44,938 nucleotides of DNA from Lewinellaceae bacterium (GTDB lineage: Bacteria > Bacteroidota > Bacteroidia > Chitinophagales > Saprospiraceae). The position numbers were made by a program, and so were the translations under genes. The stretch is from NCBI GenBank assembly GCA_947459655.1, contig CANHEE010000010.1:1-44938 (forward strand). Direction: 5' to 3'. Shown here piece after piece: positions 12,920-16,846 of this stretch (position 1 is the first letter of the stretch; each line of letters opens with the position of its first letter). Under the pieces are notes generated by a model, which had not been told where the DNA came from, did not search any database, and worked only from the letters and a program-made list of their open reading frames with translations.

Positions 12920-15511
12920 GTGTTTGCCAAGATCAAAGAATCAATCAGTCCCCGGATTGGCAGATTATTGCTGCTAATAGGCGGCTGCTTCTTTTTGCTC
13001 ATTACACTGGCTTTTTTCCTTGAAGATGTTATCGGCAAAAAAATTGTTGCAGAATTACAGTCGAACATCAGAACCGAACTACAGGTCGGTGATGTCAGTT
13101 TTTCGCTGATCAGTTCCTTTCCATATGCCTCACTCAATCTGAAAAATATCGTCATCAAGGGTAACGACCAAAGCAATATGCTGAAGGCCGGCTCACTTCG
13201 CTTCAAAATCAACATCCTGAGTCTGTTTGATGATCCCATAAAAATCAAAGCCATAAGTATCAGGGATGGTGTACTTTTGATGAAAACAGATGAAAATGGC
13301 GCGACCAACTATGACATTATCAAGCCCGGGAACAACAAAAACAATGACCAGGTCGCATTCGTACTGGAGAAGGCTACTTTAAAAAACATTATCGTTGGAT
13401 ATCAGCACGAAGGCAATAGAGAAGATGCAGGCTTCACCATCAAAAATGCTACATTCAAGGGAGCACTCAGTGAGAAAAAATTCAACCTGAGCAGTAGCGC
13501 AGATCTCGTTTGCCACGGAATCAGCAGAAACGGAAAGTCTTTTCTGGTGAAGAAGAATATTTCCTACAAAACCGATCTGAAGGTCGACAGAATCCGCAAT
13601 AAGTACAATATCGGAAAATTTTCACTTGCATTGGAAGACAACAAATTTGATGTTCAGGGCAAAGTTGCTGTTTCGAAAAAAACAACTGACTATCATCTGC
13701 GTTTCAGGGCTACCGACTGCAATATCGGTTCCCTGCTTGCTATCTTTCCACAGGCACGCATCAGCGATCTGAGCAGCGAAGGTAACCTTTCCGTCAGCGG
13801 CACAGTCATAGGTGTTCAATCGGCTGCAAGCCAGCCCGATATAAATGCCGAAATCCGGCTTGTGAATGGTACGCTAAAAAGCCCAAAACTCAGTAATGCA
13901 CTTGAAAGCGTGAATTTTACCGCCAGGCTCAATACTAAGAAAGGCGAATCGTATCTGGCACTGGATAATTTCAGCGGTTTTTTTGGCAAACAGCCCCTCC
14001 AAATGAAGTTAAACATTAAAAACTTCAGCAACCCATATGTTAATTTTTCAGTGGATGGAAAATTGCCATTGGCATCAACCTATAAAGCAATGGGACTGAA
14101 AAACATGCAGTCGGCAAGCGGATTCATAGCACTGAAGCAAGTGCAGGTTTCAGGTTTTCTTGCAGACATGAGAAGCCCAAACAGCGTTTCAAGGGTTAAT
14201 ATGTCCGGCACATTGGGAGCTGAGCACATTTCCATGGTGTTAAACAACGAAAGCATCTCTCTGCCCGTAGGATTACTTCGTTTCAACAACAACACAATAT
14301 CAGCCGAGGGACTTGACATTGCAGTTGCAGGGAGTCGCTTCACCCTCACAGGTTACATCAACAATCTACTGCCCGCTTTGCTGAGGGACTCACCGCAGCA
14401 GAGCAGCAAACTGGGTTTCAGACTTAAGCTACAGGCGGGAAATCTGGATGCACAAAGAGTGGCTGCGTTATTCCAGGAGAAATCGCCAAAAACAACTCCG
14501 AAAACGGAACAGGGGCAAAACGCAAAACCCCAGCAGCCAATCACATCACTACTTAGTGGTGTATTTGAAGCAAAGATTGAAAACCTCAGCTACGGAAAAA
14601 TAAAAGGTAAACATTTTGACGGCAGTATCGGCTTTCAGCAGGATGGGTTAACTCTCAACGGAAAAATAGAAACGATGCGGGGAAAGGTAACAATGAATGG
14701 CAAAATCTCTGTCTCGTCTACCCCCTACCTTACTGCAGTGATTGACGGAAACAACATAGATACAGGAACACTGTTTGAGCAATGTGAGGATTTTGGCCAG
14801 CAGGTCATTCAAAGCCGCAACATATCAGGTCGGATGGATTGTCAGCTCGCTATAAACGTACTCTGGGACCGCAACTGGAATGTACGCGATGACAAGTTGA
14901 ATGTATTGGCCTATCTCAGAATTAATGATGGCCGGTTGCAAGGACTTAATATGATGGACAACTTATCCAAATATGTAAAAACCGAAGATCTCAGGAACAT
15001 CAGATTCAATACACTTGAAAACTGGTTCGAGGTCAGCAACAAAACCATCAGGATACCGGCAATGAACATCAGGAGCAATGCACTCAACCTGACCCTCAGT
15101 GGCACGCACACCTTTGACAATTATATCGATTACAACATAAAACTGAATGCTGCAGATGTGGTATTGTCAAGATTTAAAAAACCAGCCGCAGAGCGCGAAA
15201 ACCGAGAAGATGCCGGGCAGTTCGGGTTACTCAACGTATTTTTCAACCTGAACGGACCAATCGACAATTACAAAGTGCAGATGTCAAGAAAAGTGGTTAA
15301 AAATGATTTTGAAGAAAGCAACCTCCTGAAAAGTAAAATTCAATCCAGGCTAAAGGCCCTCCACAACGGGAAGGAAATACCCTTTGCAGACTTGCCTACA
15401 GAAGCTGCCACACAAACAGAATTCAAGACTGTTTCCAGCAATCCAAAAACAGTAAAAAAGAAGATACAGGAAAGAGCTGAAGAGAAACTGGAGTACATTG
15501 AAGGATTTTGA
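12920..15511 (+). CDS. AsmA-like inner-membrane-anchored periplasmic protein
   Basis: An 863-residue protein starting with GTG at 12920. It has one N-terminal membrane segment (LLLLIGGCFFLLITLAFFL, about residues 16-34). The AsmA motif follows: VQVGDVSFSLISSFPYASLNLKNIVIKG, LRFKINILSLF and IRDGVLLMKTDENGATNYDI. A long beta-repeat body leads to an AsmA C-terminal-like region (INDGRLQGLNMMDNLSKYVKTEDLRNIRFNTLENWFEVSNK and TLSGTHTFDNYIDYNIKLNAADV). AsmA proteins are related to TamB and are thought to bridge the periplasm for phospholipid traffic. It is divergent from the plug gene. The last 20 or so residues are charged and coil-like. The GTG is preferred because no ATG precedes the membrane segment. 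Confidence 0.87.
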   Translation: MFAKIKESISPRIGRLLLLIGGCFFLLITLAFFLEDVIGKKIVAELQSNIRTELQVGDVSFSLISSFPYASLNLKNIVIKGNDQSNMLKAGSLRFKINILSLFDDPIKIKAISIRDGVLLMKTDENGATNYDIIKPGNNKNNDQVAFVLEKATLKNIIVGYQHEGNREDAGFTIKNATFKGALSEKKFNLSSSADLVCHGISRNGKSFLVKKNISYKTDLKVDRIRNKYNIGKFSLALEDNKFDVQGKVAVSKKTTDYHLRFRATDCNIGSLLAIFPQARISDLSSEGNLSVSGTVIGVQSAASQPDINAEIRLVNGTLKSPKLSNALESVNFTARLNTKKGESYLALDNFSGFFGKQPLQMKLNIKNFSNPYVNFSVDGKLPLASTYKAMGLKNMQSASGFIALKQVQVSGFLADMRSPNSVSRVNMSGTLGAEHISMVLNNESISLPVGLLRFNNNTISAEGLDIAVAGSRFTLTGYINNLLPALLRDSPQQSSKLGFRLKLQAGNLDAQRVAALFQEKSPKTTPKTEQGQNAKPQQPITSLLSGVFEAKIENLSYGKIKGKHFDGSIGFQQDGLTLNGKIETMRGKVTMNGKISVSSTPYLTAVIDGNNIDTGTLFEQCEDFGQQVIQSRNISGRMDCQLAINVLWDRNWNVRDDKLNVLAYLRINDGRLQGLNMMDNLSKYVKTEDLRNIRFNTLENWFEVSNKTIRIPAMNIRSNALNLTLSGTHTFDNYIDYNIKLNAADVVLSRFKKPAAERENREDAGQFGLLNVFFNLNGPIDNYKVQMSRKVVKNDFEESNLLKSKIQSRLKALHNGKEIPFADLPTEAATQTEFKTVSSNPKTVKKKIQERAEEKLEYIEGF

Positions 15512-15530
15512 CAAAAAAAATATTTAGATA

Positions 15531-15562
15531 TTAGTTATTTTTTGAATAAGTTTTTACCTTTG
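15531..15562 (+). promoter_or_regulatory. Predicted promoter of the structured RNA
   Basis: TACCTTTG at 15555-15562 is a perfect -7 box. TTAG at 15531-15534 lies 20 bp upstream as a weak -33 element. The same TACCTTTG octamer is found before cdsA, clpX and rpmI. Confidence 0.55.
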
Positions 15563-15876
15563 GGGCTGTGCCACGAAAAGCAGTATTCAGACTTTGATGT
15601 ATTTACGGATTCTTTATTAATTCAATACATTGAAAATCATAAGAATACGACTTTCCCAATCTGTTCTTTTAATAAAGCACCCTATTGCTTTTGCAGTATA
15701 CAGAACATCAGATTGAGAAAGCGCGAGAGGCACCCTGCCGGCCATTACAAGGAAAAGCAACTTTTTAAGATTAGGTCTATTTAAATATATACCCTCCACC
15801 TTGGAGAAAAAAAATGTTCATGGGATTATAATTTGTTGTTGAAAAGTCGTATCAAAAGAGATACGACTTTTTTTTT
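15563..15876 (+). ncRNA. Candidate structured non-coding RNA, class unknown
   Basis: No credible protein is encoded between the AsmA-like gene and cdsA, yet the interval has a consensus -7 box and a strong terminator. Within it a three-way fold can be drawn. The closing stem pairs GTGCC (15568-15572) with GGCAC (15729-15733), extended by GGC/GCC. Arm 1 pairs GTATTC (15583-15588) with GAATAC (15643-15648) and ATGTATT (15597-15603) with AATACAT (15624-15630). Arm 2 pairs 15651-15663 with 15709-15721 (one mismatch), GTTCT (15663-15667) with AGAAC (15702-15706), and AAAGC/GCTTT at the tip. The core is about 180 nt, the size of 6S RNA, but the large one-sided arm does not fit 6S well. The 3' end could be the terminator at 15876 or an earlier processing site. 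Confidence 0.5.
15842..15876 (+). terminator. Strong Rho-independent terminator after the structured RNA
   Basis: A 12-bp perfect stem pairs 15842-15853 with 15860-15871 around the loop AAAAGA. A run of T continues to 15876. No gene ends just upstream, which argues that a separate transcript is terminated here. Confidence 0.9.
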
Positions 15877-15920
15877 GCCTCCCGGATATCCATCAATTAC
15901 CCTATCAGACGCTTATTTCT

Positions 15921-15950
15921 TTTATTATACGTCAGTTTATAGTACCTTTG
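15921..15950 (+). promoter_or_regulatory. Predicted promoter of cdsA
   Basis: TTTA at 15921-15924 is followed after 18 bp by TACCTTTG at 15943-15950. The cdsA ATG at 15989 is 38 bp downstream of the box. Confidence 0.6.
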
Positions 15951-15988
15951 CTGCTGAGCATCAGAAATTTCCGCTGTTTCACCGCACA

Positions 15989-16846
15989 ATGAAGAAAAGA
16001 CTTATCACTGCTATTATTTTCGTCGCTGTCATGTTTGCAGGCATGTTGAGTGGTAAGCAGTCTTTTGCTGCACTTTTCGGAGTAATTACCGCTTTGTGTC
16101 TCTGGGAATTTTTTGATATGGTATTTGAAGACGGTCTGAAACGTGACCTGACCCGGAAAATCATTGCGATTTCATTCGGTATGCTTCCTTACGCTGCCGT
16201 TTCGTTGCTGCACCTCAATGCCTGGGGACTGGCACCCCAGCAACTTTTTCTGGTGTCATTTGCTTTACTGCCACTGGTTTTCCTCTGCTTCATTTTTGAA
16301 CTATTTTCTAAATCGGAACACCCATTTCACAATGTCGCGCTTACTTTGCTGGGAATGACCTATATCTCGGCGCCATTTTCCATGCTTAACCTCATTGCTT
16401 TTAACGGCGACAGTTTCTCACCAAATATTGTGATGGGACTGCTATTCCTGATTTGGTCCAACGACACCGGTGCATATTTGGTGGGTTCCAGATTTGGAAG
16501 AACGAAATTGCTGTCCAGAATATCACCCAAAAAAACCTGGGAAGGATTTATCGGAGGCATGGCACTCACCTTCCTCGTGAGCTGGGGTCTGAGCAGTTAC
16601 TATACTGAAATCCGCACCACAGATTGGCTAGTATTGGCGGGGATTTCGTCAGTGTTCGGGACCATCGGCGATCTGGTAGAGTCTATGCTGAAAAGAAGTT
16701 TTGAAGTAAAGGATTCCGGCACTTTATTGCCCGGACATGGTGGATTTCTTGACCGCTTTGATGCTTTCATGTTCCTTATCCCTTTTGCCACCGCCTATCT
16801 GCTGTGGATTAGATATACGGGTCAGGACTTTATCATTACTCCATAA
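15989..16846 (+). CDS. cdsA: Phosphatidate cytidylyltransferase (CDP-diglyceride synthase)
   Basis: A 285-residue inner-membrane enzyme that makes CDP-diacylglycerol from phosphatidate and CTP, the branch point of phospholipid synthesis. It has about eight hydrophobic segments. The C-terminal family signature is complete: SMLKRSFEVKDSG followed by LLPGHGGFLDRFDAFMF. The start MKKRLITAIIFVAVMF at 15989 matches the usual N-terminus; an upstream in-frame ATG at 15833 would span the terminator and promoter. A lipoprotein gene follows 9 bp after the stop, suggesting cotranscription. Confidence 0.95.
   Translation: MKKRLITAIIFVAVMFAGMLSGKQSFAALFGVITALCLWEFFDMVFEDGLKRDLTRKIIAISFGMLPYAAVSLLHLNAWGLAPQQLFLVSFALLPLVFLCFIFELFSKSEHPFHNVALTLLGMTYISAPFSMLNLIAFNGDSFSPNIVMGLLFLIWSNDTGAYLVGSRFGRTKLLSRISPKKTWEGFIGGMALTFLVSWGLSSYYTEIRTTDWLVLAGISSVFGTIGDLVESMLKRSFEVKDSGTLLPGHGGFLDRFDAFMFLIPFATAYLLWIRYTGQDFIITP

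Follow-up and report, generated by a model that had tools for sequence, protein, structure and literature searches.

The known systems closest to the locus reported here are small RNAs (sRNAs) of Bacteroidota. In Bacteroides thetaiotaomicron, the family of paralogous sRNAs (FopS) is described as multicopy, with a conserved seed and housekeeping-type promoters, and as pairing around the start codons of genes for outer-membrane and surface proteins; the same description includes one member derived from a 3′ UTR and a phage-borne homologue (PMC11697453). For Rfp18 of Flavobacterium psychrophilum, the predicted targets are described as secreted proteases and an adhesin, with one pairing region for all of them (PMC9723704). 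Saprospiraceae are described as common and abundant in wastewater plants (PMC9304909), and in the titles and listings of the literature searched we met no small-RNA regulator for this family.

The locus lies in a stretch of 44,938 nucleotides, called the window below, from contig CANHEE010000010.1 (assembly GCA_947459655.1) of a Lewinellaceae bacterium belonging to Saprospiraceae. An earlier note on this DNA had proposed an unannotated structured RNA gene at 15531–15876, between an AsmA-like gene and cdsA. A real RNA gene is indeed present in this interval, recognised earlier on partly wrong grounds. Its 3′ end, 15794–15876, is a member of an RNA family without an Rfam match and apparently undescribed, here called family A, which is laid out as a small hairpin, a near-invariant core (TGTTCATGGGATTATAATTTGTTG), a long covarying hairpin and a U-tract; the conserved core at 15815–15838 had been overlooked in the earlier reading. 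With a probability of about 72%, we consider that this is a lone copy from a multicopy, lineage-specific family of base-pairing sRNAs that would control the translation of surface proteins. The features of the locus are as follows.

12920–15511, + strand: AsmA-like gene (upstream), 863 aa; Pfam DUF748 at 38.8 bits, under its cut-off of 50
15555–15562, + strand: TACCTTTG, candidate −7 promoter element; the RNA start would fall near 15569; not the family promoter
15565–15793, + strand: 5′ part (leader), containing the three-arm fold proposed earlier; without relatives in 40 genomes, stability not significant
15794–15806, + strand: small hairpin 1 (CUCC-ACCUU-GGAG), placed as the weak hairpin 1 of family A
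15815–15838, + strand: conserved core TGTTCATGGGATTATAATTTGTTG, the proposed seed; first 15 nt exact in 231/298 family genomes
15841–15876, + strand: hairpin 2 and T run, an intrinsic terminator; the stem covaries across family A
15943–15950, + strand: second TACCTTTG, candidate cdsA promoter element
15989–16846, + strand: cdsA (downstream); CTP_transf_1, 205.7 bits

Both the promoter-like box and the terminator read earlier are present. The terminator, given as 12 bp, was found as a 13-bp stem at 15841–15872 with a T run to 15876, and is the sole + strand terminator-like site in 15400–16050. The TACCTTTG box is at 15555–15562, but the promoter typical of family A is missing there, the best score of the family promoter model upstream of the window core being 1.7 bits. 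By our own estimate from base composition, about 0.25 occurrences of TAnnTTTG are expected by chance per 346 nt. A second occurrence ahead of cdsA makes TACCTTTG a plausible promoter word in the window genome; it also precedes the gene beside a paralogue on contig 20 (L023, ~953), apparently as the −7 word of this genome.

The proposal of a lineage-specific RNA gene is supported for the 3′ third, part of an RNA family that hardly occurs outside Saprospiraceae; the reasons given for it are mostly unsupported. The closed three-arm structure is predicted for 15565–15755, yet it is no stabler than shuffled sequences (z = −1.24, with 28/200 shuffles equal or better), and the same applies to 15569–15770 (z = −1.50, 13/200). 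A longer stretch reached z = −2.63, with 0/100 shuffles as good, but this stretch includes the terminator. When the interval was compared by blastn with 40 genomes, its own included, matches appeared in 21 of them, often at least two per genome; besides the own copy they covered 15804–15876, the last 73 nt, barring three stretches of the 5′ part (23–31 nt, E 0.003–0.005) that are taken for chance. 6S RNA consists of one closed stem, interrupted by a central bubble and conserved among relatives. The predicted fold of the 5′ part is three-armed, and no homologues of this part were found in the 40 genomes. A 6S RNA, of which the earlier note was reminded by the size, is unsupported: a search of the own genome with RF00013 at E ≤ 10 gave no match, and the family is multicopy. 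In a control search this model matched 8/14 named control genomes, above cut-off in 4, and may be weak for the phylum. Only the length class is shared with 6S RNA, family A being multicopy, without a model match and equipped with a seed-like core. Rfam 15 returned 0 families at gathering score for the whole window, and at 15300–16100 only five weak matches, all far under cut-offs. Taken together, a 6S-like or other RNA working through the 180-nt three-arm fold at 15565–15755 is a very unlikely explanation: two long arms do appear in the predicted fold, but it gains no stability over shuffles, its matches in 40 genomes are three, short and weak, there is no 6S match in the own genome and no Rfam match, and the conservation detected sits in the last 80 nt. 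Rfam scans for weak matches in ten family A loci and five loci of RNAs complementary to the core (anti-core RNAs) gave one match above cut-off, a piece of a group II intron (group-II-D1D4-3, L024:215–343 on the − strand, 34.4 bits against a gathering score of 32), at least ~120 nt from the family A array.

The blastn matches, once extracted, have TGTTCATGGGATTATAATTTGTTG in common, followed by a hairpin of variable sequence. The exact 15-nt core is present in 231/298 genomes of the window's family, Saprospiraceae (166/217 of those of good quality), and its reversed-pattern control gave 0 throughout the same family genomes. An order-level scan found the core in 32/37 family genomes versus 3/161 other genomes, and a class-level scan in 2/198 genomes, both belonging to Saprospiraceae. 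At least 118 stretches carried the core in a scan of contigs; among the matches listed, most are titled Saprospiraceae, Saprospirales, Chitinophagales, Lewinella or Phaeodactylibacter, and some only Bacteroidetes, Bacteroidia or bacterium. Three odd matches (L081, L103 and L107) lie inside open reading frames (ORFs), and sister variants of the core, e.g. CATTCGTGGGATTACAATTG and CATTCGTGGAATTATAATC, occur at L084 and, read on the opposite strand, at L260 and L271–L273. Many family genomes have at least two copies of the core, in keeping with multicopy sRNAs with a conserved seed of the FopS/GibS type, and the own genome has a second copy on contig 20 with 2 mismatches in 21. The genes neighbouring family A arrays vary from group to group, so the family A RNA looks like an independent gene. 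Family A was not met in the titles and passages of the literature on small RNAs of Bacteroidota and Saprospiraceae, and literature searches with the sequences themselves gave nothing on bacterial small RNAs, judged by title.

A coding role for the core finds little support. A conserved reading frame across the interval, which the earlier note had named as evidence against an RNA gene, was looked for and not seen, the core variants not being synonymous codon changes. A short coding sequence in the core was likewise rejected, as the synonymous pattern is absent. In many copies ATGTTCATGGGATTATAA would be translated as M F M G L and then a stop, but variants drop the first ATG or the stop and a synonymous pattern was not seen, so that a core encoding the five-residue peptide MFMGL is hardly credible.

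Family A units frequently stand in tandem, with two or more exact units in 98/161 arrays, a maximum of seven, and distances of 80–199 nt between units in 140/188 cases. T runs of at least 6 lie behind 125/156 last units versus 37/188 other units. The hairpin-2 region has z < −2 in 215/229 non-redundant units versus 25/229 for a control stretch; the hairpin-1 region is weaker (63/229 units). In an alignment of 26 last units, taken as every fourth of 104, all consensus pairs of hairpin 2 (9/9) show two-sided changes, with pair counts from RNAalifold. A hairpin of terminator type adjoining the core in 215/229 units, the multicopy nature of the family and its presence in nine viral contigs would also suit an element that does not regulate as an RNA, whether a mobile repeat or a lineage-specific element acting in transcription termination or as DNA. 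This is highly improbable, however, as a conserved promoter lies upstream, inner units are mostly without long T runs, the core is kept far beyond the needs of termination, and its antisense counterparts have promoters.

The promoter is bipartite, TTTTTGTCTTTG-N19-CATATTTGTATCGTGA, with a TTTCACAAT box before it, and was found at ≥8 bits in 131/148 non-redundant arrays, against 12/444 shuffles, by a model trained on the same arrays as were scored. Model-free 9-mers of the promoter were enriched beforehand (39–50/137 versus ~0.3–1.4 expected); a search for TAnnTTTG at a fixed position before the core had shown no clear peak, and k-mer enrichment then gave the actual promoter. The spacing is exactly 19 in 127/131, and the distance from promoter end to first core is 40–79 nt in 92/131 arrays. 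Its elements resemble the −33/−7 promoter of Bacteroidota. In most arrays the TTTCACAAT box lies a few nt 5′ of the −33 element and is likely an activator or UP-like site. The own contig-20 paralogue has a weak family promoter of 6.2 bits (24/444 shuffles reach 6). These data establish family A, the promoter in most of its arrays, its covarying hairpin and its taxonomic range; what we infer from sequence is the mechanism, not the existence of the family.

The window copy is an atypical, solitary member of family A. It keeps the 15-nt core, hairpin 2 and the T run at 15815–15876, as well as hairpin 1. A point against a seed role is that its core is only about half open, at 55–59% unpaired in the ensemble predicted for this RNA. 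The window RNA would come either from the TACCTTTG promoter near 15555 or from processing of the 3′ end of the AsmA-like mRNA. Instead of being a separate gene, the window copy could be the 3′ UTR and terminator of the AsmA-like mRNA carrying a core module, possibly released as an sRNA by processing. It lies on the same strand, 303 nt past the stop codon, with no other + strand terminator-like site between, and the family promoter is missing. In 7/9 viral contigs a frame of at least 60 codons stops 4–39 nt before the core, and one FopS RNA is described as 3′-UTR-derived (PMC11697453). On the other hand, most arrays have their own promoter, 40–79 nt before the first core in 92/131, and TACCTTTG lies between the AsmA-like gene and the window core; we consider this origin unlikely, though a serious possibility. 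The nine viral contigs (L191–L199) have the core followed by a hairpin of −9.5 to −19.3 kcal/mol, and these copies are possibly a phage-borne mimic; in L191, TATATTTG stands directly before the viral core.

In the preferred reading, a base-pairing sRNA, family A RNAs would start at the promoter's GTATCGTGA and end in a U-tract, with the near-invariant core UGUUCAUGGGAUUAUAAUUUGUUG displayed just 5′ of a strong hairpin in each unit; in the last unit of an array this hairpin usually runs into a U-tract. The core would serve as an antisense seed: by pairing with AACAAAUUAUAAUCC...AUGAA(C) around start codons it would block ribosome entry and lower the synthesis of secreted and surface proteins.

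Among the genomes searched, the rare complements of the 3′ half of the core are over-represented right at translation starts, and most of these starts belong to proteins that look exported. The search pattern AACARATTATARTCCD, whose last letter rules out exact sense copies of the core, gave 83 matches in 398 genomes versus 13 for the reversed pattern (hand count). All 83 sites were classified, with start sites defined as lying within 46 nt upstream of the ATG of an ORF of at least 100 aa: 17 are at translation starts, 11 in ORFs, 3 antisense to ORFs and 52 intergenic. Thirteen of the 17 start sites lie 0–8 nt before the ATG. The share of start sites, which include two pairs of congeneric copies, is 17/83 versus 2.3% at random positions (p = 9e-12), and 17/72 versus 5.6% at AT-rich non-coding positions (p = 4e-7). 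By a crude hydropathy rule, 13/17 start-site proteins look exported versus 30/81 ORFs (p = 0.003). A domain scan of nine candidate targets, of which five come from the 17 and four from other searches, yielded Big_9/cadherin, HYR, dockerin, OMP beta-barrel, thioredoxin-SPOR, SprB and DUF1361; two MKGKKLF-type proteins among them had no or a weak domain match. A second pattern, TTATAATCCN{2,9}ATGAA, matched in 144/199 genomes, mostly by chance in the 30 loci fetched; of its eight start sites, five (judged by eye; two are congeners) continue into AACAAA or a word very close to it. AACAAA is the complement of UUUGUU and no part of the pattern.

The excess is not a general one. In an unselected screen of 645 translation starts in the fetched loci, the core did not pair above shuffled cores (8/40 as good at −13 kcal/mol and 11/40 at −15), and in a similar sample type-IX and signal-peptide genes as classes showed no better pairing (p = 0.43 and 0.99). 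Any target set must therefore be small. Among the 645, a DUF4382 lipoprotein has the best-pairing start. In three genera the predicted pairing at DUF4382 starts reaches −17.3, −18.1 and −22.8 kcal/mol, values equalled by 9, 4 and 0 of 3000 shuffled cores; the first was chosen as the best of 645, and the other two are relatives in two more genera, whose start regions pair despite differing sequence. Fifteen other DUF4382-type genes (17 entries, three of them one gene) had no start at −13 or better, L207 and L211 being read on another ORF. Anti-core sites also lie between a type-IX-secreted gene and a core-pairing DUF4382 gene at L203:1110–1400 (five or more sites; the secreted protein is dockerin-like) and L026:1510–1590 (three). 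A further group of proteins of ~480 aa, MKGKKLFHLLSSL... and MYNSKLFAILQHF... (L261, L284 and L135), alike by eye and with no or a weak Pfam match, have starts that pair with the core at −19.1 kcal/mol (two genomes of genus g15) and −15.1 (L135), and are not exported-looking.

In the window's genome, 37 sites matched ACAAATTATAATCC when 2 mismatches were allowed, versus 20 for the control, and 1/29 classified near-sites, from 30 loci, was at a translation start (−11.5 kcal/mol). The best of 122 starts in the own-genome DNA examined, by 7 kcal/mol, belongs to a large protein on contig 23 (AACAACAAATTATATAATCC...TTGAACATGG); a small insertion had kept it from matching the pattern. It pairs with the 27-nt window core at −26.5 kcal/mol, with 0/5000 shuffled cores as good, with a longer window piece at −29.2, and with the contig-20 copy at −18.8. 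The protein has 2641 aa, a signal-like N terminus and Ig_7, lamin-tail (LTD) and Por_Secre_tail domains; with its type-IX secretion tail, it is a predicted target in this genome.

Repeated motifs can also titrate an RNA-binding protein, as in CsrB. A near-invariant motif repeated beside hairpins would fit such a role, in which the core would be a protein-binding site and the tandem arrays would titrate the protein instead of pairing with mRNAs. Complements of the core, in part relying on G-U pairs, are nevertheless concentrated at start codons and in promoter-bearing RNAs of a second family, here called family B. Protein binding would not lead one to expect this, and titration of a protein is improbable.

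Some of the 52 intergenic anti-core sites lie in family B RNAs and some before terminators. Ten precede a terminator-like hairpin, five of them 7–57 nt and five 232–279 nt behind a stop codon. In L253, L254, L280, L281 and L308, AACAAATTATAATCC stands directly before the terminator CCTTTCC...GAAAGG-T, 232–279 nt behind the gene and without a family promoter; these sites are perhaps a third kind of anti-core RNA. Among 22 of the 52 intergenic sites, picked by eye, nine have a family-type promoter on the anti-core strand (17.7–26.1 bits, 19-nt spacing) and 13 do not. The promoter-bearing RNAs that were read carry one or more anti-core sites and, at their end, a second module, GGTATGTAGATAGCCTCTCAAAGCTC, with a terminator. 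This second module, the family B core, is a near-invariant 26 nt present in 46/248 family genomes (24/112 genera), with 77/83 matches exact when 3 mismatches were allowed and 0 for the control; it was not found in the window's own genome. The family B loci are L273, L272, L271, L263, L283, L323 (~500 nt around the anti-core site) and L333–L362, and the gene next to family B in L273 and L323 is rpe (Ribul_P_3_epim).

Taken one per genome, the family B loci fetched have the family A type of promoter in 30/30 (15.7–33.2 bits) and anti-core sites in 22/30, 41 in total, while 8 have none; the null is 0.04 per locus (150 shuffled cores). A single candidate has up to four strong sites, and the duplexes predicted between family B RNAs and family A units from their own genomes have −37.7 to −43.2 kcal/mol in the three pairs tried. 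From these sequences we infer that family B is a sponge for family A in the genera that have it: its RNAs, with anti-core sites behind a similar promoter, would titrate family A. Enterobacteria have sRNA–sponge pairs, for instance GcvB and SroC, in which the sponge titrates the sRNA through complementary sites. The candidates here differ in having the promoter architecture of the sRNA itself, up to four strong sites and a second near-invariant core.

By analogy, family A most likely works like FopS. Both belong to Bacteroidota and are multicopy, with a conserved seed and pairing at start codons, which is predicted in family A; the likeness is one of published description. It extends to the housekeeping type of the promoters, to a member from a 3′ UTR, a possible origin of the window copy, and to copies borne by phages or viral contigs. 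With respect to FopS-type pairing at the starts of surface-protein genes, the 17/83 enrichment and the target in the own genome agree with it, yet there is no general excess in the 645 starts. Family A is unlike FopS in its tandem arrays, which hold as many as 7 exact cores, its lineage, its upstream TTTCACAAT box, its predicted targets, which include type-IX-secreted proteins and DUF4382 lipoproteins, and the second RNA family with anti-core sites. Rfp18, again compared by description, is likewise a Bacteroidota sRNA with a single pairing region and secreted or adhesin proteins as predicted targets, but it is described as one sRNA conserved in its genus, with tandem arrays or a sponge unmentioned in the passages compared (PMC9723704).

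A wider reading of the same sequences, which we hold to be evenly balanced between right and wrong, is a circuit spanning Saprospiraceae, in which tandem sRNAs would repress secreted and surface proteins via one seed and family B would be a built-in sponge with its own core GGTATGTAGATAGCCTCTCAAAGCTC. Through the anti-seed or seed modules present at the 3′ ends of some mRNAs and in viral contigs, mRNAs and phages would join or hijack this network. If true, a large post-transcriptional network would control adhesins and secreted proteins in these bacteria, and its seed, promoter, target word and sponge would offer sequence handles for testing it straight away. It would also suggest that multicopy sRNAs pairing at start codons are a recurring strategy of Bacteroidota, to which tandem arrays and dedicated sponges would be extra design elements.
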